NCBI GenBank assembly: GCA_029974175.1
Contig: JARKSS010000097.1
Location: 1 to 35,051 of the forward strand
DNA: 35,051 bases
Reading direction: 5' to 3'
DNA from: Vicinamibacterales bacterium
GTDB lineage: Bacteria; Acidobacteriota; Vicinamibacteria; Vicinamibacterales; Fen-181
Shown: in pieces, positions 25,566-35,051 of the stretch
How the letters are laid out: each line of letters opens with the position of its first letter
Position numbering within the stretch: the first letter of the stretch is position 1
Translations under genes and position numbers: made by a program
Notes under the pieces: model-generated
The model's database searches: none
The model's input: the letters and a program-made list of their open reading frames with translations, nothing else
Told to the model about the DNA's origin: nothing

Positions 25566-25617
25566 ACAGGATCGCAGATCCGCGAGAGTATACGCCTTTG
25601 CTGCCCGCTCAGCAGTT

Positions 25618-25810
25618 CAAGGCTCAAGGCTCAGGGCTCACGGCTCAAGGGCGGCTCAAGGCTCACGGCTCAGGGCTCCTGCACCTCCTGCACCTCCAGC
25701 ACCTTCTGCACCGCCTGCACCGCCTGCACCTTCTGCACCGCCTGCACCCTCTGCACGACGAACCATCCTCCCCCCTCCACCCTGAGCCCTGAGCCGTGAG
25801 CCTTGAGTCC
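25618..25810. repeat. Composite element: GGCTCAN heptamers in inverted orientation flanking a nine-copy GTGCAGNNG nonamer array
   Basis: 24-bp perfect inverted repeat 25655-25678 / 25784-25807 (CTCAAGGCTCACGGCTCAGGGCTC / reverse complement). 81-bp array of nine 9-mers at 25678-25758 ending CTGCACGA. Confidence 0.85.
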
Positions 25811-25845
25811 TCCTGCGTCATGCATAATGTCCCGGGGGTGGTGCG

Positions 25846-26856
25846 GTGAGGAGTGCCGGACGGGCGATCGGCGTGGCGGTGCTGGTGGCGTTGGCGTGCG
25901 GGCTGGTGTTCGGGCAGGAACCCGGGCGCGAGCTGGCGCCGTTCGAGGACTGGCTGAAGGAACTGCGCCAGGAGGCGCTTGCGAAGGGCATCAGCCAGTC
26001 GACGGTGGAGGCGGCGCTGGGCGAGGTGACCGTCCTGCCCGTGGTGATCGAGCGCGACCGGACGCAGGCCGAGCAGGTGATGGCGATCGACACGTACCTG
26101 AAGCGCCGGGTGGACGCCCGGACGGTCAGGACGGCCCGGCGCATGGCGCGCCAGCATGGCCCGCTGCTCCGCAAGGTGACCGCGCAGTACGGTGTCCCTT
26201 CCTCCATCCTCATCGCCGTCTGGGGCCTCGAGTCCACCTTCGGCCGCTTCAGCGGCGTTCGCCCGACCATCCCGGCCCTCGCCACGCTTGCCTACGACAA
26301 CCGCCGGGCGGCGCTGTTCCGCGCCGAGCTGTTCGACGCCCTGCGGATCCTCGATCGCGGCGACATCGAGCTCGCGCGGATGAAGGGGTCGTGGGCGGGC
26401 GCGATGGGGCAGCCGCAGTTCATGCCGTCGAGCTACCTCAAGTACGCCGTAGACTTCGACGGCGACGGCCGGCGCGACATCTGGTCGTCGCGGGGCGACA
26501 CCTTCGCGTCGATTGCCAACTACCTGCGCGAGCACGGCTGGACGACGGGTCAGCGGTGGGGAAGGGCGGTCCGGCTGCCAGCCGAGACGGCGGCCATCGA
26601 CGAGGCAGCCCCGCTGCGGGCCGAGGGGTGCGTGGCAGAGCGCCAGATGACGGTGAAGCTGCCGCTCTCGCGGTGGAGTGCGCTGGGCGTCCGCACGGAG
26701 ACGGGACAGAAACTGCCCCGCACGTCGTTCGACGCCTCGCTCGTGCGCGCCGGCTCGCGGACCTACCTGGTGTACGGCAACTACGAGGCGCTGCTCGCCT
26801 ACAACTGCGCCCACGCCTACGCGCTCAGCGTCGCGCTGCTCTCGGATCGGATGTAG
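25846..26856 (+). CDS. Lytic murein transglycosylase, MltB-like (SLT_2)
   Basis: FEDWLKELRQEALAKGISQSTVEAAL; YGVPSSILIAVWGLESTFGRFSG; GSWAGAMGQPQFMPSSYLKYAVDFDGDGRRDIW. Confidence 0.92.
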   Translation: MRSAGRAIGVAVLVALACGLVFGQEPGRELAPFEDWLKELRQEALAKGISQSTVEAALGEVTVLPVVIERDRTQAEQVMAIDTYLKRRVDARTVRTARRMARQHGPLLRKVTAQYGVPSSILIAVWGLESTFGRFSGVRPTIPALATLAYDNRRAALFRAELFDALRILDRGDIELARMKGSWAGAMGQPQFMPSSYLKYAVDFDGDGRRDIWSSRGDTFASIANYLREHGWTTGQRWGRAVRLPAETAAIDEAAPLRAEGCVAERQMTVKLPLSRWSALGVRTETGQKLPRTSFDASLVRAGSRTYLVYGNYEALLAYNCAHAYALSVALLSDRM

Positions 26857-26858
26857 GG

Positions 26859-26884
26859 AGGGGCTAGGGGCTAGGAGCTAGGCT
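26859..26884. repeat. GGGGCTA heptamer tract directly after the MltB stop codon
   Basis: AGGGGCTAGGGGCTAGGAGCTAGGCT, period 7; same family as 1653-1677. Confidence 0.7.
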
Positions 26885-27014
26885 GGCCAGGCTGGCCCCG
26901 GGCGACGAGCGGGCGTAAGATGATCCTCGGGTCGCGTCGGCAAGCGCGGCCCTTCCTCACCGCACACGAGTCGGCCGAGCGTCTTCCAACCGTCCTACGG
27001 AAAAGGAGGCCAGC

Positions 27015-27506
27015 ATGCCGATCCCCCCGTCGATCGCGGAATTCATCCGCCAGAAACCCCATACGGTGCTTTCACACCGGACCGCGTTCACCGCGCAGGA
27101 AGAGGCGGCCGCCACACACGTGCCGGGACGCCAGTGGGCCAAGACCGTCGTGTGCCTGGCCGACGGACAGCCGGTTCTCGCCGTCCTGCCCGCGCACTAC
27201 ATGGTCGACCTGGAACAGCTCCGGCACCTGGCGGGAGCGAACACGGTGCGGCTGGCGACCGAGGCCGAACTGCGTCAGCTCTACCCGGACGTCGAGACCG
27301 GCGCCGTGCCGCCGTTCGGGCCGATGTTCGGCCAGCGGACGTTCGTCGATCGGGTGATCGCGGAGGACGACGAGGTGGTCTTCCACGCGGGCACGCACGT
27401 GGACGCGGTGCGGATGCGCTATCCCGATTTCGCCGCGCTGGCGTCGCCGCTGGTGGGCGAGTTCGGCCGCCCGCCCGCCCGCAGCCACCGTGCGCAGACG
27501 CACTAG
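27015..27506 (+). CDS. YbaK/EbsC (ProX-like) aminoacyl-tRNA deacylase
   Basis: MPIPPSIAEFIRQKPHTVLSHRTAFTAQEEAAATHVPGRQWAKTVVCLADGQPVLAVLPAHYMVDLEQL; SD AAAAGGAGG upstream. Confidence 0.88.
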   Translation: MPIPPSIAEFIRQKPHTVLSHRTAFTAQEEAAATHVPGRQWAKTVVCLADGQPVLAVLPAHYMVDLEQLRHLAGANTVRLATEAELRQLYPDVETGAVPPFGPMFGQRTFVDRVIAEDDEVVFHAGTHVDAVRMRYPDFAALASPLVGEFGRPPARSHRAQTH

Positions 27507-27531
27507 CAGGCCGCTGAAACACGCGGCCTGA

Positions 27532-27600
27532 AATGCAAAACGCAAAAGGGAAAATGTAGAAACACGCCCTCTTTTCACTCTCCATTTTCCCTTTTACATT
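27532..27600. repeat. Low-GC inverted pair of AAAATGN/AAAAGGG heptamer repeats
   Basis: ATGCAAAACGCAAAAGGGAAAATG (left, about 27533-27556) and CATTTTCCCTTTTACATTGCA (right, from about 27583); AAAAGGGAAAATG/CATTTTCCCTTTT is a perfect 13-bp arm. Confidence 0.75.
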
Positions 27601-27751
27601 GCAGGCTTCTCTCTTCAGCAACCTGCTAGGGGCGGGCTTGTGCACTTTCACCACGAGGCGCACAGAGACGTACGCAGAAGACGCGGTTCGTTTTGAGGAT
27701 CCCGGCCTCAGGGCCGCGGCGGTGGCACCTGTGAAGACGGGGCGTCAGGAA

Positions 27752-27871
27752 TTCACCGCAGACGCAGAGCGCGCAGAGATTCACGACAGCGGCACAGAGC
27801 CACGGAACGTCACGAGCAGCGACCTCGAATCAATCCAAGGACCTCTGCGTTCTCTGCGTCTCCGCGGTGAA
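27752..27871. repeat. Inverted pair of TTCACCGC..ACGCAGAG repeats
   Basis: Left TTCACCGCAGACGCAGAGCGCAGAG (27752-27776). Right CTCTGCGTTCTCTGCGTCTCCGCGGTGAA (about 27843-27871) is the reverse complement with small indels. Confidence 0.75.
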
Positions 27872-27914
27872 ACGCTCGTCCCACGTGCGAGCCCGGGGAA
27901 CCGGTTTCCGCGGC

Positions 27915-28793
27915 TCAGGCGACGCCGTGGAACACCTCGATTGGGACGGGCAGGCGGTCGCGCACCAGGCGCGCTATCCGGTCGAGTTCGCCGTTGCTCA
28001 GCGGCGACACCGACGGCTCGGCCGGCTTCCGCGCGATGGTGTAGAGCTGGATTGACTTGAGGTGTCCGCCCGCCGCGCGAAGCTCTTCGAGCCGGGAGCA
28101 GAAGGCGGCAACCTCGGTGTCAGGAGGTGGTTCGCCGTCGAGGCGCACCCAGAGCGACTGGATGACGACGGGCCGGGCGCGCGCCGCGTCGAGGATGCTG
28201 TGGAGCACCTGCGCGAGCGTGGCCTTCGAGCGGTTCACCCGCCGGAACGACTCCTCCGTGCCGGCGTCCAGCTTGGCCCAGATCTCGCCGTTGTTCCGGT
28301 CCAGAAGCGCCAGCGTCTCGCGGACCTTCGGCCTCGCGAGGTAAGCCGCGTTGGTGATCAGCACGAGCTTCGCCTGATCGAGGCCGTGCCGTCGCCGGCC
28401 CGCCGCCGCAATCTCCACCGCCTTTCCCAAGCCGCGGAACGTGGTCGGCTCGCCGTCGCCCGAGAAGGCGATGTCGCGGATGGTCCGCTGGTCGGGCGCG
28501 AGCGCGTCGAACGGCGGCGACTGGTACAGCGAGCCGTCACGGGCGGCTGCCAATATCGTGTCGAGCTCGCGCGCGAGCACGTCGAGGTCCACCCGCCGTG
28601 TCCGTCCGGGCACCCCGCGATCCACCTGGCAGTAGATGCAGTCGAAGTTGCACTCCTTCCCGGGATTGAGGTTGATCCCGATCGAGACCCCGCGGCTTCG
28701 CCTCGAGACGACGGCGTAGACATAGAGGTGATCGGCCCAGCGACGCTCGTGCCGCTGCCAGGCCGACTGCAGGGCTGGCGAAGGGGTGAACAT
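27915..28793 (-). CDS. Radical SAM protein (Fe-S oxidoreductase)
   Basis: INLNPGKECNFDCIYCQVDR (CxxxCxxC), IAFSGDGEPTTFRGLGKAVE, KLDAGTEESFRRVNR; ATG at 28793. Confidence 0.9.
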   Translation of the reverse strand: MFTPSPALQSAWQRHERRWADHLYVYAVVSRRSRGVSIGINLNPGKECNFDCIYCQVDRGVPGRTRRVDLDVLARELDTILAAARDGSLYQSPPFDALAPDQRTIRDIAFSGDGEPTTFRGLGKAVEIAAAGRRRHGLDQAKLVLITNAAYLARPKVRETLALLDRNNGEIWAKLDAGTEESFRRVNRSKATLAQVLHSILDAARARPVVIQSLWVRLDGEPPPDTEVAAFCSRLEELRAAGGHLKSIQLYTIARKPAEPSVSPLSNGELDRIARLVRDRLPVPIEVFHGVA

Positions 28794-28918
28794 CCTCACG
28801 ATGATAGCAACGCCTGTCACGTGCGTTCACCACAAGGGCAACCAGAGCGGTCGGATGCATTCAGGCCGCGTTTTTTCAGCGGCTAGTGCAGGGGGTACCG
28901 AGAGCGCCGATCCGTACC

Positions 28919-29009
28919 AGCACCCTCGGCACCATCAGCACGAGCACCCTCGGCACCATCAGCACGAGCACCCCCGGCACCTTCAGCACCGTTTGCACCT
29001 CCTGCACGA
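28919..29009. repeat. GTGCAGNNG-family array with tandem 24-bp higher-order repeat
   Basis: CACCCTCGGCACCATCAGCACGAG at 28921-28944 and 28945-28968, degenerate third copy from 28969; ends CTGCACGA (29002-29009). Confidence 0.8.
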
Positions 29010-29167
29010 TCCGAGACCGAGAGATTCCTTAGAATGTTCAAGGATCCTCTGCACGTATCTCCGTGCTGCTGTGCCTCTGTGGTGAACGTGGACAAGCCGT
29101 TGTTGTCTGCTGCGCACCTCACCGCAGATACTCACGGGCGCGGAGTTCCGGGATCAGGAGGCGATTG

Positions 29168-30169
29168 ATGCAGAAGAAGCGACTCGGCAGGACGGGGCTC
29201 GAGATCACGCGCGTCGGGTTCGGGGCCTGGGCTGTTGGCGGCGGGGGCTACGCCTTCGGCTGGGGGCCGCAGGATGACAACGAGTCGATTGCCGCCATCG
29301 AGAAGGCGGCCGACCTCGGTGTGAACTGGATCGACACCGCTCCGGTGTACGGCCTCGGCCGCTCGGAGGAGGTGGTCGGGCGCGCCCTGAAGCGCATCCC
29401 CGCCGGGATGCGGCCGTACGTCTTCACCAAGTGCAGCCTCGTCTGGCCCGAGGGTGGGGGCGAGGTCGCGCACTCGCTCGAGCCTGCGTCGATCAAGCGC
29501 GAATGCGAGGCCAGCCTGCGCCGGCTGGGCGTCGAGGCCATCGACCTCTACCAGGTTCACTGGCCGCGGTGGACGAACGTGGCCGGCACGGACCCCATCG
29601 AGGAAGGGTGGGGCGCGCTGGCGGAGCTGAAGCGGGAGGGCAAGGTCAGGCACATCGGCGTCTCGAACTTCGGCGTGGACGACCTCGAGCGCGCCAACCG
29701 CGTGGCGCCGGTCGAGTCGCTGCAGCCGCCCTACTCGCTGCTGCGCCGGAAGATCGAGGCCGAGGTGCTACCGTACTGTCTCGCGCACGACATCGGCGTC
29801 ATCGTCTACTCGCCGATGCAGGCGGGGCTGCTGAGCGGCAAGATGACGCGCGAGCGCCTGGCCGCGCTGCCGGAGGACGACTGGAGGAAGCGCACGAAGG
29901 AGTACCAGGAGCCGAACCTCAGCGCGAACCTGGCCTTCGTCGAGGTGCTGCGCACCGTTGCGGCACGGCACGGCCGGACGCCCGGCGAGGCCGCGATTGC
30001 CTGGACGCTCCGCCATCCGGCCGTCACGGCTGCAATCGTCGGCTTCCGCCGGCCTGCCCAGGTGGCCGAGCTCGTCACGGCCGCCGATTTCCAGCTTCCG
30101 GATAGCGACGCTGCCGAGATCGAGCGGGCAATTCCAGGCGGCGACGCAAGCATCAAGGCCGGGAACTGA
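29168..30169 (+). CDS. Aldo/keto reductase
   Basis: MQKKRLGRTGLEITRVGFGAWAVGGG; GVNWIDTAPVYGLGRSEEVVGRAL; DLYQVHWPRW; KVRHIGVSNFGVDDLERA. Confidence 0.95.
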   Translation: MQKKRLGRTGLEITRVGFGAWAVGGGGYAFGWGPQDDNESIAAIEKAADLGVNWIDTAPVYGLGRSEEVVGRALKRIPAGMRPYVFTKCSLVWPEGGGEVAHSLEPASIKRECEASLRRLGVEAIDLYQVHWPRWTNVAGTDPIEEGWGALAELKREGKVRHIGVSNFGVDDLERANRVAPVESLQPPYSLLRRKIEAEVLPYCLAHDIGVIVYSPMQAGLLSGKMTRERLAALPEDDWRKRTKEYQEPNLSANLAFVEVLRTVAARHGRTPGEAAIAWTLRHPAVTAAIVGFRRPAQVAELVTAADFQLPDSDAAEIERAIPGGDASIKAGN

Positions 30170-31460
30170 AGGCCGAAATCTGACGAGTCTGCACGGTGAG
30201 TCCCAGCTCGGGGTTCACCAGCTCGCGGCCATTGAAGCGGGCGGGCACGTAGACCAGGCGGCGTTCGTGGACGTGGAGGTCGGCCGCCGCCAGGACCTCG
30301 CGTATGCCGCGGCGGGCCCGCCCGAGGGTCGCGAGCAGGACGAACAGCGCCTCGTCCAGCGCGGTTTCCGGCAGCGTCACCGCCTGGCACTTCCGCGGCT
30401 GCAGCGACGCCCGCGCCTCATCCGCGGGCGTCGCCGCCTGCTCGGCCGCTGCTGCCACCGGTCGCCCCGGCCTCGCGCAGGTGAGGGTCTGCGCGGCGCG
30501 GAGGAACTGCTCGGGGTGTGCGGTGAAGGCGGGGAACCAGAAGCCCAGCGGCTCGTGCTCCCAGGCTGGCTGCACGACGCGCGGGAGGTTGACGAGCCGC
30601 ACGAGGTCGGCCCACGTTGCCGCCGCGCGGGCCCCGGCGCGCCAGAACGGCAGGTGCGCATCGGGTGTCCAGCCGTCCGCCGGCAGGACGTCGAAGGGAG
30701 CCGGCACGAGTTGCGACTCGCCGGCGCGCCAGCCCCGGCCGCAGTTCACGCAGAGCAGGACCAGCGTGTCGGTTGCCCCCTCGAGTTGCCAGCCGCACTC
30801 GGGGCAGAGCGTGGCGAGGAACCGCACCGGCGCGGGGCGATCGTCGCCTTCCGGCACTGCGTTCTTCCACCTGTCCGCGTCGATTCCCGCGATCCTCCGG
30901 TTCAGCACGGCGTCGAAGACCGAGCGGGCCGACACCCGCACCGGCGTGTAGACCAGCGACGATGCCGTGGTGACTGTCGCCTCGGAGGGGGTGGTTGCTT
31001 CTTCCTCGCTTGCGCGCGGGCCCCTTGCAAGACCCTGCTCGACGCGCCTGATCCGTTCGAGCTGCTGAAACACGAGATCGGGCGGGCGCGTCGCCGGCAG
31101 GAATCGTCCCTCGGCAGCCGGCGTGGCGAAGCGAAGCGGAACGGCCTGGGCGCGTACGCCAAGCGAGGGGGCCAGGCCCGGCACGTCCGCTGCGATGGCC
31201 GTGCAGTCGGCTGCACCCGGCTCGACGCCGGACGGCAGTAGCCGGTAGCGGTGGGCCCGCAGGCGCCAGTACGGCACCATGACGATGGTGCCGATGGGCG
31301 CTGGCTTCACCGGAAGGCAGTACTTCGGGAGCGCGTTTCCGGCAAGCACGTACAGGCGCACCCTGCAGTAGGCGCACGTCAGGATGCGATCGGCCTCGTG
31401 CATCGATACCGGGCCGCCGCACTGCGGGCACCGCTCCTCGACAATCCAGTCGTTGGGCAT
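30153..31460 (-). CDS. Uncharacterised protein with two zinc ribbons
   Basis: MPNDWIVEERCPQCGGPVSMHEADRILTCAYCRVRLYV and a second CPECGWQLEG...LLCVNCGRGW; 435 aa. ATG at 31460 preferred over the 1357-aa ORF extension. Confidence 0.75.
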   Translation of the reverse strand: MPNDWIVEERCPQCGGPVSMHEADRILTCAYCRVRLYVLAGNALPKYCLPVKPAPIGTIVMVPYWRLRAHRYRLLPSGVEPGAADCTAIAADVPGLAPSLGVRAQAVPLRFATPAAEGRFLPATRPPDLVFQQLERIRRVEQGLARGPRASEEEATTPSEATVTTASSLVYTPVRVSARSVFDAVLNRRIAGIDADRWKNAVPEGDDRPAPVRFLATLCPECGWQLEGATDTLVLLCVNCGRGWRAGESQLVPAPFDVLPADGWTPDAHLPFWRAGARAAATWADLVRLVNLPRVVQPAWEHEPLGFWFPAFTAHPEQFLRAAQTLTCARPGRPVAAAAEQAATPADEARASLQPRKCQAVTLPETALDEALFVLLATLGRARRGIREVLAAADLHVHERRLVYVPARFNGRELVNPELGLTVQTRQISAFSSRP

Positions 31461-31631
31461 CTCGCGCGTTCCAGCTGTCCGGTTCCGGGACGTCGGTGCG
31501 CGCCTCCGAACGGCCGGGATGCCGTGGCGGCGCTCAACTCCTTTTCCAATGAAGACTTGCCGAAGCCGGGCCTTCGGCACGCTCTTCGCCTTCCGAGGTA
31601 CTGTCGGCACGTCCGGCCGGGAGATGCAGTC

Positions 31632-34130
31632 ATGGCCTTTCTCGCGACAGACCTCAAACACGCCTTGCGGATGGCGGGCAAGACACCCGGCGTGACCCTG
31701 GTGGCGGTTCTCACGCTCGGCCTTGGCATCGGCGCCGTGACCAGCATCTTCAGCCTGGCCAACGGCGTGCTGCTGCGCCCGCTGCCGTTCCACGACCCCG
31801 ACCGCCTGGTGGCGATCAGCGAGGGGCTCCCGCGCCTTGACTACCCGGTCGTTCCCTTCTCGCCGCCCGACTTCGACGCCTACTCGCGTTGGAACCAGAC
31901 GATGGAGGGTGTGGCGGCGTACGACAACAGGCAGGTGGAGTTGTCGGGTGTCGCGCAGCCCGAGCGCCTCGTGGCCGCCCGTGTCACGCCGAACCTGTTC
32001 CGGCTGCTCGGCATCGAGCCGGCGCTCGGCCGCGTCTTCGAGAGCGACGACGCCGCCGGCCCGGGGCGCCATGTCGTGATCCTCAGCGACGCGCTCTGGC
32101 GCCGCACCTTCGCCGGCGATCGCCGCCTCCTCGGGCGCACGATCGTCATCGACCGCACGCCGCACGAGGTTGTCGGCGTGCTCCGTCCCCGTCTCGAGTT
32201 CCCGCCGCGCGGCGACGGGGCGCCCTGGGCGGCCTTCAACAACCAGCCAGCCGATCTGTTCCTCCCCAAGTGGTTCACACCCGACGACCTGCAGGGCTAC
32301 GGCAACCAGTTCAACTCGTCGGTGATTGGCAGGCTGCGGCCTGGCGTCACCGTCGAGCAGGCGCGGGCCGAGGCCGAGGCGCTCGTCGCGCGGCTCGAGG
32401 CCGCCTATCCGGCCGGCGTCCGCACCGAGCCGAAGTTCAAGCTCCAGCTGTGGGTGTCGCCGCTCAAGCAGGCGATCGTCGGAGGCGTGCGCCCGTTGAT
32501 CCTCGTGCTGTTCGGCGGGGTCGTCCTGCTGCTCCTGGTTGGTTGCGCCAACGTCGCCAACCTGCTGCTGGCCCGCGGTGCCACGCGCCAGCGCGAGTTC
32601 GCGCTGCGTGTCGCGATGGGTGCCGGCCGGCGCCGCCTCGTCGCGCAGCTCCTCACCGAGGGCGCGCTGCTCGGCCTGGCCGGCGGGGTGGTGGGCGTGC
32701 TGCTGGCGATGTGGGGTACCGACGTCCTGGTTGCGGCCCTGCCCGTCAGCATCCCGCGCGCCGAAGCCGTGCAGGTGGACGCGACCGTCCTGGCGTTCGC
32801 GCTTGCGGCCTCGCTCGCGACGACGTTGATCTTCGGGCTTGCACCGGCCATCCCGTTTGCCCGCGGTACCCGCGGCGAGGCACTGCGGGAAGGAGGGCGT
32901 GGCGCCACCACCGGCCCTCGCACCCCGCGGCTGCTTGGCGGGTTGGTCGCGGTTCAGTTCGCGCTCGCGCTGGTCCTCGCCATCGGCGGGGGCCTGCTCG
33001 CCCGGAGCTTCGTACGCCTGCTTGCGACCGATCCCGGTTTCTCGCCCGGGCAGGTACTCTCGCTCTCGGTCACGCTGCCGGCCAGCTCGTACTCCGAACC
33101 GCGGCAGGTGCGGGGGTTCTACGACGAACTGGTGGACCGGCTGGCGCGGCTGCCCGGTGTCGAGGAGGTCGGCGGAGGAACAAGCCTGCCGATGAACGCC
33201 ACCGAGCGCCGGATGTTCTCGGTCGAGCGCCCTGCCAAGGGGGCCAACCGCGTGTCGGGCTCCACCACCCTGGCGTACGTCAACGGCAACTACTTCCCGG
33301 CGCTCGGCATTCGCTTCGTCGCCGGCCGGGCCTTCACCGGCGCCGAGATGAAGCACGACGCCCCGCCGGTAGTGATCGTGAACGAAACGCTCGCCCGGCT
33401 GTTCTTCGACGAGGGCCGCGCGGTCGGGGAGCGGGTGAAGTGGGGAGGCGCGCAGTCGGATGCGCCCTGGATGACGATTGTCGGCGTCGTCGGCGACGTG
33501 AAGCAGGGCGGCCTCGACAGCGCGGTCACGCCGGCAGTCTACCAGCCCTTCGCCCAGGCGCCGGACAGCGAGATCGCGTTCTTCTTCCGCTTCATGGACA
33601 TTGCCGTCAAGGTACGCGGGATCGATCCGCTCTCGCTCGTGCCGGCGGTGCGCCGCGAGGTGCGGGCAATGGACGCGGCGCTGCCGATTGCCAACGTGAG
33701 GACGATGGAGCGGGTCGTGACGGGGACGGTGCGCTCGCAGCGGTTCTATACCGTGCTGATTGCCGCCTTCGCCGGGTCGGCGCTCCTGCTCGCGGCGATC
33801 GGGCTCTTCGGCGTTCTGGCCACGGCTGTCGCCCAGAGGACGCAGGAGATTGGGGTGCGCGTGGCGCTCGGTGCGCCGCCGCGCTCGGTCTTCCGGCTCG
33901 TGCTGCAGGACGGCCTCGTCTACGCGGGCCTCGGCCTCGTTGGCGGCGTGGTGGCGGCCGCGGCCGCGACGCGGGTGCTCACCCGCTTCCTCTACGGCAT
34001 CTCGGCTTTCGACCCACTGACCTTTGCCGCCGGCACGCTCGTGCTGGCTGTCGTCGCGCTCGCGGCAGGCTACCTGCCAGCCCGCCGGGCCGCGAGGATC
34101 GATCCGATTGTGGCGCTGCGGGCGGAATGA
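31632..34130 (+). CDS. ADOP family FtsX/MacB-like ABC permease
   Basis: LKHALRMAGKTPGVTLVAVLTLGLGIGAVTSIFSLANGVLLRPLPF; LLLVGCANVANLLLARGATRQREFALRVAMGAGR; C-terminus GYLPARRAARIDPIVALRAE*. Confidence 0.93.
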   Translation: MAFLATDLKHALRMAGKTPGVTLVAVLTLGLGIGAVTSIFSLANGVLLRPLPFHDPDRLVAISEGLPRLDYPVVPFSPPDFDAYSRWNQTMEGVAAYDNRQVELSGVAQPERLVAARVTPNLFRLLGIEPALGRVFESDDAAGPGRHVVILSDALWRRTFAGDRRLLGRTIVIDRTPHEVVGVLRPRLEFPPRGDGAPWAAFNNQPADLFLPKWFTPDDLQGYGNQFNSSVIGRLRPGVTVEQARAEAEALVARLEAAYPAGVRTEPKFKLQLWVSPLKQAIVGGVRPLILVLFGGVVLLLLVGCANVANLLLARGATRQREFALRVAMGAGRRRLVAQLLTEGALLGLAGGVVGVLLAMWGTDVLVAALPVSIPRAEAVQVDATVLAFALAASLATTLIFGLAPAIPFARGTRGEALREGGRGATTGPRTPRLLGGLVAVQFALALVLAIGGGLLARSFVRLLATDPGFSPGQVLSLSVTLPASSYSEPRQVRGFYDELVDRLARLPGVEEVGGGTSLPMNATERRMFSVERPAKGANRVSGSTTLAYVNGNYFPALGIRFVAGRAFTGAEMKHDAPPVVIVNETLARLFFDEGRAVGERVKWGGAQSDAPWMTIVGVVGDVKQGGLDSAVTPAVYQPFAQAPDSEIAFFFRFMDIAVKVRGIDPLSLVPAVRREVRAMDAALPIANVRTMERVVTGTVRSQRFYTVLIAAFAGSALLLAAIGLFGVLATAVAQRTQEIGVRVALGAPPRSVFRLVLQDGLVYAGLGLVGGVVAAAAATRVLTRFLYGISAFDPLTFAAGTLVLAVVALAAGYLPARRAARIDPIVALRAE

Positions 34131-34143
34131 GCACTGACGCATA

Positions 34144-34337
34144 TCGTGCAGGAGGTGCAGTGCAGAAGTGCAGGAGGTGCTGGTGCCGGAGGTGCTGAGG
34201 GTGCTGCCAGCACCCCTGCACGGCACCCGCCTTCGCCGCGCGGTGCGCGGCTACGGCGCGGCAGGCGCCCCCAGCACCTTCTGCACCTTCAGCACTGCAC
34301 CTCCTGCACCCCTGCACCTTCTGCACCTTCTGCACGA
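34144..34337. repeat. Face-to-face pair of GTGCAGNNG nonamer arrays around a GC-rich palindrome
   Basis: Left TCGTGCAGGAGGTGCAGTGCAGAAG... (from 34144); right ...CTGCACCTTCTGCACCTTCTGCACGA (to 34337). Arms share the 18-bp inverted GTGCAGGAGGTGCAGTGC (34146-34163 / 34292-34309). Core palindrome GCCGCGC-GGT-GCGCGGC at 34235-34251. Confidence 0.85.
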
Positions 34338-35051
34338 CTATCGAAGAATCGTCGCCTTCACCTCCACCGACTGCTTCCGCTCGACGTTGTCCACGAAGTC
34401 GCTGGACTGCGCGACGAGCACCGGCTTCCCGTTCTCGAGGTAGAGCGAGATGCTCTGCGAGAAGGTCGGAAACGACGGGGCGCCCGCCGTGGAAGCCGAC
34501 TTCTCGTCCACGCCGCTGAACTCGACCTGCAGCAGCGCCCGGATGCGGTTGCCCGGCACCACCGCTGCCTGGTTCACGTCCACGTTCAAGCCCACCGAGC
34601 GGTAGTTGTAGGAGACCACCGGCTTGGGCGCAGGCGCCGCCGCCGGCGCCGGCGTTGATTCCTGGTGCGGCGCTCCCGGCGCCGGGATCGGCATGAACGT
34701 CGTCGAGGGGACCGGCACGTTGGTGCCCGACCGGAGCGAGCTGCGGGGGAAGCCGCTGCCGGTGTTGTTGGCCACCGTCAGCGTCGCGGTGCGCCGAATC
34801 GGTGCCGCCGTTCCGGCCTGGTAGGAGATCGTCACGTCGAACCGGATGTTCACCCAGTCGGCTTCGATGCGCTCGCGGCCCGGCGGCTTGGGCGCGGGCG
34901 GTGGTGGCGGCGGCGCCTCGGGCTCTGTGATCGGGGTGGCCGGTGCGGGCGGCGCCGCTGGCGGCTTGGGCGGTTTCACCTGCTGTGGCCGGGGCGCCGG
35001 GGCTGCCTGTGCGGCGGGTGTCGCCTGCGCGGCCTGCGCGCGCGCCGGTCT
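34338..35051 (-). CDS. Pro/Ala-rich uncharacterised protein, truncated by the window edge
   Basis: Frame open to the end of the window; APAP/PPKPP linker then a folded region RIEADWVNIRFDVTISYQAG...ALLQVEFSGVDE...FSQSISLYLENGKPVLVAQSSDFVDNVERKQSVEVKATILR. Confidence 0.65.
   Translation of the reverse strand, partial: RPARAQAAQATPAAQAAPAPRPQQVKPPKPPAAPPAPATPITEPEAPPPPPPAPKPPGRERIEADWVNIRFDVTISYQAGTAAPIRRTATLTVANNTGSGFPRSSLRSGTNVPVPSTTFMPIPAPGAPHQESTPAPAAAPAPKPVVSYNYRSVGLNVDVNQAAVVPGNRIRALLQVEFSGVDEKSASTAGAPSFPTFSQSISLYLENGKPVLVAQSSDFVDNVERKQSVEVKATILR

Follow-up and report, generated by a model that had tools for sequence, protein, structure and literature searches.

GTGC nonamer palindromes in a Vicinamibacterales genome and their possible relation to S23/IVP genes enclosed by inverted short-tandem arms

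Results

Arrays and palindromes in the window

This study concerns intergenic arrays of 9-nt units starting with GTGC and their possible relation to genes of the S23/IVP family (23S_rRNA_IVP). The arrays lie in a 35,051-nt stretch of DNA from a Vicinamibacterales bacterium (assembly GCA_029974175.1, contig JARKSS010000097.1), hereafter the window, which is contig C498 of a metagenome-assembled genome (MAG) of 3.79 Mb in 539 contigs with a completeness of 83%. The neighboring genes encode TrkH, SLT_2, tRNA_edit, radical SAM, aldo/keto reductase and MacB/FtsX proteins and one unknown protein, and an Rfam scan of the window revealed no known RNA family and no rRNA. A sequence-only reading had described four nonamer arrays, at 25758 (-), 29009 (-), 34337 (-) and 34144 (+), in divergent (25.7k and 28.9k) and convergent (34.2k) spacers. 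All four were found at these positions, and the gene calls agree with the spacer orientations; nevertheless, they do not represent four separate elements, as the arrays at 34144 and 34337 form the pair of arms of a single palindrome. The features are as follows.

34143..34338, - strand: complete palindromic GTGC-N5 element of 195 bp (covariance model 96 bits, E 4e-17 on -, 6e-12 on +; nhmmer E 7.6e-14)
34144..34215, + strand: one arm of this palindrome, beginning TCGTGCAG, inner end approximate (sequence, self-complementarity)
34229..34266, no strand assigned: hairpin GCCTTCGCCGCGCGGTGCGCGGCTACGGCGCGGCAGGC, resembling repetitive extragenic palindromic (REP) elements, nested between the arms (alignment and listing of copies)
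34270..34337, - strand: other arm, reading TCGTGCAG from 34337, inner end approximate (sequence, self-complementarity)
28875..29010, - strand: second palindromic GTGC element, one end degenerate (covariance model 46 bits, E 1.7e-6; nhmmer E 1.1e-8)
25676..25758, - strand: single-arm array of nine 9-mers plus the TC boundary (Tandem Repeats Finder, TRF: period 9, 9.0 copies)
25617..25675, + strand: left arm of a GGCTCAN heptamer palindrome (TRF; palindrome 25648-25814)
25780..25811, - strand: right arm of the GGCTCAN heptamer palindrome (TRF, self-complementarity)

The complete element fills a convergent spacer, flanked by an FtsX/MacB permease gene that stops at 34130 and by a gene of no known function that stops at 34338, and its predicted minimum free energy (MFE) is about -149 kcal/mol including flanks. 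The second element, which includes the 29009 array, is located between the radical-SAM (-) and aldo/keto reductase (+) genes. The array at 25758 consists of nine 9-mers; no opposite GTGC arm was found at this locus, and the array is contained in the loop of the GGCTCAN palindrome.

Abundance and fixed boundary

In the window, TCGTGCAGNNGGTGCAG with up to two mismatches had 17 matches, compared with 0.15 expected. A genome-wide search with three consecutive GTGCAGNNG units (GTGCAGNNGGTGCAGNNGGTGCAG, up to one mismatch), gave 80 matches and none in the reversed control, while TCGTGCAGNNGGTGC gave 28 (control, 3). When the three-unit search was pooled with the other matches, arrays bounded by TCGTGCAG were located at about 41 places. 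For the analysis of the boundary, 46 array starts were picked without requiring TC ahead of the first GTGC. Position -1 was C in 39/46 of them, -2 was T in 32/46 and -3 was A or G in 43/46, with at most 0.2 bit of information further upstream, whereas internal units are preceded by G. Since these bases are enriched at starts chosen regardless of the boundary, the fixed boundary is genuine.

Palindrome anatomy and a common master

For many arrays, an inverted partner lies no more than about 200 bp away. From end to end, the best copies align as a single palindrome, about 140-225 bp long, with the layout CAGA-TCGTGCAGGAGGTGCAG... GTGCAGTGCTGATGGTGCCGGAAGTGCTGGTGCCG ... centre ... CCTGCACCTCCGGCACGA-CTG. 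A strict palindrome scan returned only five, and the palindrome results are therefore those of a relaxed scan; in 321 kb of the genome, the GTGC elements rank among the strongest palindromes, with a predicted MFE of -83 to -150 kcal/mol in 150-240 nt. The covariance model, built from seven full copies (170 positions), detected about 20 palindromic loci. The arrays are intergenic and often occupy the entire spacer, the number of units varies from copy to copy, and convergent spacers are enriched (9/17 array spacers vs 28/140, p 0.001, on contigs sampled for bearing arrays). Conserved CAG(A)TCGTGC ends, a palindromic body, small size and the lack of coding capacity are as expected of miniature inverted-repeat transposable elements (MITEs).

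The inner units of good copies are GTGCTG and GTGCCG. Because they are common to the copies, the polarity of the arrays is a property of the master sequence, and progressive decay toward the distal end, as proposed in the sequence-only reading, is rejected, even though conservation is moderately lower inside (0.69-0.80) than outside (0.80-0.90). Among six core copies, same-orientation alignments between copies mostly scored well above the alignment of each copy with its own reverse complement (e.g., 211 for C151-C465, vs 145 and 104), C176 being a partial exception. This demonstrates that the core copies descend from one asymmetric palindrome and spread from it, and the resemblance rules out a fresh inverted duplication at each of these loci. 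Thus, the earlier idea of a defined element with a fixed end, rather than random slippage, is retained, while degeneration from that end is not.

A second hairpin, which is REP-like and contains GTAG, is nested in some copies; it was seen at window positions 34229-34266 and in C438, C477, C376 and C51, always with the same 9-mer phase. Other palindromes with short-tandem arms, among them GGGATTC and CACAAAGGA, are also present in the genome. A dispersed palindromic repeat of 106-131 bp, CAGGNNGCTGAA...AATGCAAAAGGGAAAATGTAGAA...TTCAGCNNCCTG, whose arms are likewise short-tandem-like, was noted in the window (27501-27631), L157 (4669-4774) and L159 (11966-12091). At window positions 27740-27880, short repeats of the CGCAGAG type form an inverted pair (TTCACCGC..GAGACGCAGAG / CTCTGCGTCTCCGCGGTGAA), and their sequence also adjoins several GTGC arrays elsewhere in the genome. 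In addition, palindromes with the core GCCGCTGAT...ATCAGCGGC were found in L157 (8500-8677), L158 (14713-14826) and L163 (9884-9970).

Distribution across genomes

According to a criterion of four GTGC at five-base spacing, GTGC-N5 arrays are present in 69 of the 162 genomes of the order that were scanned, with up to 1096 matches per genome and, for most genomes, few in the reversed control. The covariance model showed that the palindromes of relatives keep GTGC with other spacers (TGAAG/TGGAG, CTAGA/CTGGG, GTACG, TCCAG), so that across the order GTGC is invariant and the spacers are genome-specific; 7-mer palindromes of GTGCNNN also occur in the relatives. GTGC/GCAC headed the period-9 tetramer counts in our genome, G027 and G081, in stretches partly chosen for their arrays. 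Within genera the distribution is patchy: G003 has 204 matches and its congeners 0-1, and G027 has 142 and its congener 0. In other genomes of the phylum, GTGC-N5 matches are rare and mostly resemble protein-coding repeats. An exact search of named genomes with the pattern of our genome gave 38 scattered single matches and was uninformative. The 1096 matches of the 5-Mb genome G112, far above all others, were scarcely seen in the 100 kb sampled and are probably clustered. Outside the order, G171 has six similar-looking matches (GTGCAGAAAGTGCGGGAGGTGC), some in inverted pairs.

S23/IVP genes between inverted arms

In G003, a GTGC palindrome adjoins an S23/IVP gene, and a further GTGC arm lies past the gene. 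Of the genomes tested, all 22 that are GTGC-rich have PF05635 genes, compared with 11 of the 20 that are GTGC-poor. The flanks of these genes carry inverted short-tandem arms, mostly of heptamers, the unit of which differs by locus (e.g., CAGTAGC, GGGATTC, GGGAACA, GAGTGAC). When the upstream flank was locally aligned with the reverse-complemented downstream flank, a score of at least 40 was reached at 36/48 IVP loci and at 18/1535 control open reading frames (ORFs) of the order (Fisher 2e-49). Inverted GTGC arms in particular enclose 4/49 IVP loci (G003, G013, G020 and G112) vs 1/1535 controls (p 4e-6), and at the G020 locus the order of unlike units is mirrored across the two sides. No conserved RNA was revealed between the upstream arm and the gene (mean fold z-score -0.1, 43 loci). 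The IVP proteins match TIGR02436, PF05635 and the solved structure 2GSC.

Our genome has three IVP loci, with arms of GGATTC, GAACTAA and GGCTCAN heptamers. The last is a broken gene (pseudogene), and its arms match those at 25.6-25.8 kb of the window with scores of 60 and 76, compared with shuffled maxima of 25 and 32. Near the gene with GGATTC arms lies a gene-less GGGATTC palindrome.

Insertion of gene and arms on cyanobacterial plasmids

On cyanobacterial plasmids, the flank score exceeded 40, the 99th percentile of mismatched flanks, at 8 of 15 IVP loci. These units often lie between genes of one operon, e.g., cas6/cas4 or ribonucleotide reductase genes; S23/IVP genes were found between CRISPR genes in L324, L336 and L337 (cas6-cas4 twice, cas10-cmr3 once). 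For five insertions, related plasmids keep the flanks without the unit (filled vs empty):

Nostoc C052 vs C057: GGGAACA arms
N. edaphicum vs Calothrix NIES-4105: TAGGGAG arms
Nostoc ATCC 53789 vs C052: GGGAAAA and AAGTCAG arms at two neighboring junctions
Calothrix brevissima vs N. carneum: TAGGGTG arms

Alignment of the five sites showed that the gene and both arms, about 410-510 bp, are missing together, the arms being the ends of the insertion. Since related plasmids conserve the flanks but have neither the gene nor the arms, the two insert as a unit in cyanobacteria. The comparison of Anabaena sp. 90 with Dolichospermum (cas6-cas4) gave no clean empty site.

Discussion

Based on these results, we suggest, with a probability of roughly 0.6, that the arrays represent arms, or arms left behind, of gene-less, MITE-like, non-autonomous relatives of a mobile unit, in which a gene for an S23/IVP protein (an Avd-like four-helix bundle) is enclosed by inverted short-tandem arms. 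The GTGC palindromes of our genome would then be gene-less dependants of IVP units that move, or have moved, in trans in the same way as these units. Because the unit differs from locus to locus, what is recognized would be the pairing of the arms in a DNA or RNA hairpin and not a fixed sequence. The IVP protein may be the factor that recognizes the hairpin, and the arms may lengthen and shorten by slippage.

Several observations weigh against this explanation. Our MAG (83% complete) yielded no IVP gene flanked by GTGC arms, and GTGC arrays are therefore linked to IVP genes through the relatives and through the families with GGCTCAN and GGATTC units. Arms were not detectable at roughly one in four IVP loci; GTGC-poor genomes have IVP genes as well, and many families of arms are of types other than GTGC. 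The presence/absence sites on plasmids were chosen because the search showed a gap; these sites showed no clear target-site duplication, with nothing beyond a 5-nt TTCTA repeat in one case, and no clear one was seen at the copies in our genome. Finally, arm complementarity within most copies is no tighter than between copies, so that pairing has not been visibly maintained after dispersal.

The palindromes could also be passengers that grow by slippage and hairpin template switching and spread by some other mechanism, being tolerated or preferred by IVP genes. The difference in arm unit at every locus, the variation in unit number, the many palindromes without a gene and the lack of a known mobilizing enzyme are consistent with this. 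Nevertheless, the empty plasmid sites, which lack gene and arms alike, argue that the two arrive together, and the association of arms with IVP genes is far above that with other genes, all GTGC-rich genomes tested having an IVP gene; we consider such passengers unlikely, although they deserve to be kept in mind. A functional role of the hairpins at gene ends, as RNA or DNA (an mRNA stabilizer, RNase III site or bidirectional transcription block) would agree with the great stability of the hairpins, their intergenic location and the enrichment of convergent spacers, the last of which also follows if insertions are tolerated away from promoters. The patchy occurrence among congeners and the fact that the arms of a copy mostly match each other no better than they match those of other copies make this role improbable. 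Intrinsic termination in particular, which the sequence-only reading had already considered an insufficient explanation, does not account for the arrays, as the hairpins lack a following T-run and their ends read ...GCACGACTG.

Miniature elements of the REP/REPIN type, mobilized by a Y1 (RAYT) transposase, are likewise palindromic, intergenic and dispersed; some copies contain a nested GTAG-like REP hairpin, and Y1 genes are present in 18/22 GTGC-rich genomes. However, no Y1 gene was found in our genome or in G081, G027 and G013, and none of 20 Y1 loci had GTGC arms on both sides. Several Y1 genes of the order are flanked by inverted repeats of their own (L250, L256, L257, L258, L260 and L267; e.g., GGGGTCAGATCTTGA, GGTGTCAGACACC). 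REPs of 20-40 bp with 5-13-bp stems (PMC3733652), which bear a GTAG or CGTC tag and flank a RAYT gene, differ in size and build from arms of tandem 9-mers. No transposase partner with the same ends was found in a search aimed at Y1 only. Mobilization by Y1 is thus very improbable. Copying by a reverse transcriptase, with IVP acting like the Avd protein of diversity-generating retroelements (DGRs), is suggested by the weak match of our IVP protein to Avd models (NF033474, E 2e-10; bAvd, E 3e-8; both below the cut-off). The reverse transcriptase domain RVT_1 that would be expected of a DGR was not found in our genome, nor in the nearly complete, element-rich G097, G112, G030, G020 and G082. As a general mechanism this copying is largely refuted, and we assign it hardly any likelihood.

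Returning to mobile IVP units with gene-less relatives, we tentatively propose a broader idea, which we hold at clearly less than even odds: a widespread class of elements without a transposase, recombinase or reverse transcriptase of its own, in which IVP mobilizes, in cis and in trans, any unit with two inverted short-tandem arms by their pairing and not by sequence. If this is true, gene-less copies would account for many of the so far unexplained heptamer and nonamer repeats between bacterial genes, and the intervening sequences (IVSs) of rRNA genes would be a special case of elements that landed there. Ever since S23/IVP proteins and rRNA IVSs were first described, there has been no agreement on their function or on the way they spread (PMC4990558). 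Our analysis shows that, in two distant groups of bacteria, intergenic S23/IVP genes act as discrete insertions that bring along inverted short-tandem arms of their own. This renders the old guess of a role for the ORF in mobility directly testable, and several puzzling families of intergenic tandem repeats may have a common origin. A description of S23/IVP genes with short-tandem arms outside rRNA genes was not found in the open-access literature, and one may exist elsewhere.

Comparison with known systems

The nearest known system is the IVS of 23S rRNA genes in Coxiella and Leptospira, in which an S23p ORF of about 125 aa lies in a long inverted repeat forming a stable stem (PMC4990558). 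In Coxiella, tandem heptamers GACAGAT precede the ORF (PMC4990558); IVSs are sporadically distributed, and their mobility was once proposed (Ralph and McClelland 1993, cited in PMC4990558). The likeness thus includes the S23/IVP ORF, the inverted-repeat stem, the tandem heptamers (Coxiella) and the sporadic spread. In the IVP-bearing relatives, inverted repeats that can fold into a stem surround the ORF; the window copies carry no ORF. A further mark of 23S rRNA IVSs is their removal from the transcript by RNase III. In contrast to IVSs, which reside inside 23S (or 16S) rRNA genes, the present elements occupy intergenic spacers (in the window, between protein genes), their arms are tandem arrays of 7-9-nt (sometimes longer) units that vary by locus, and there are dozens of palindromes without a gene.

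MITEs and REPINs (PMC3116915) are similar in being short, palindromic, non-coding, dispersed and intergenic with defined ends, but the arms described here are tandem 9-mers, no transposase partner was found in the Y1 search and no clear target-site duplication was seen, and the putative partner gene is S23/IVP. GTAG/CGTC-tagged REPs (PMC3733652) are also intergenic palindromes distributed unevenly between related species, and a GTAG-like hairpin is nested in our elements, whose arms nevertheless comprise about 70-100 nt of tandem units and do not flank Y1 genes. The short tandemly repeated repetitive (STRR) heptamers of cyanobacteria and the TAACTGA repeats of Beggiatoaceae (PMC4679880) share the intergenic location, short degenerate tandem units and high copy number; our arrays differ in forming inverted pairs and flanking S23/IVP genes, the STRR families being compared by description only. 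Finally, Avd of DGRs (PMC10053308) is a four-helix-bundle protein related to IVP, whereas the elements described here are associated with neither a reverse transcriptase nor a template/variable repeat pair.

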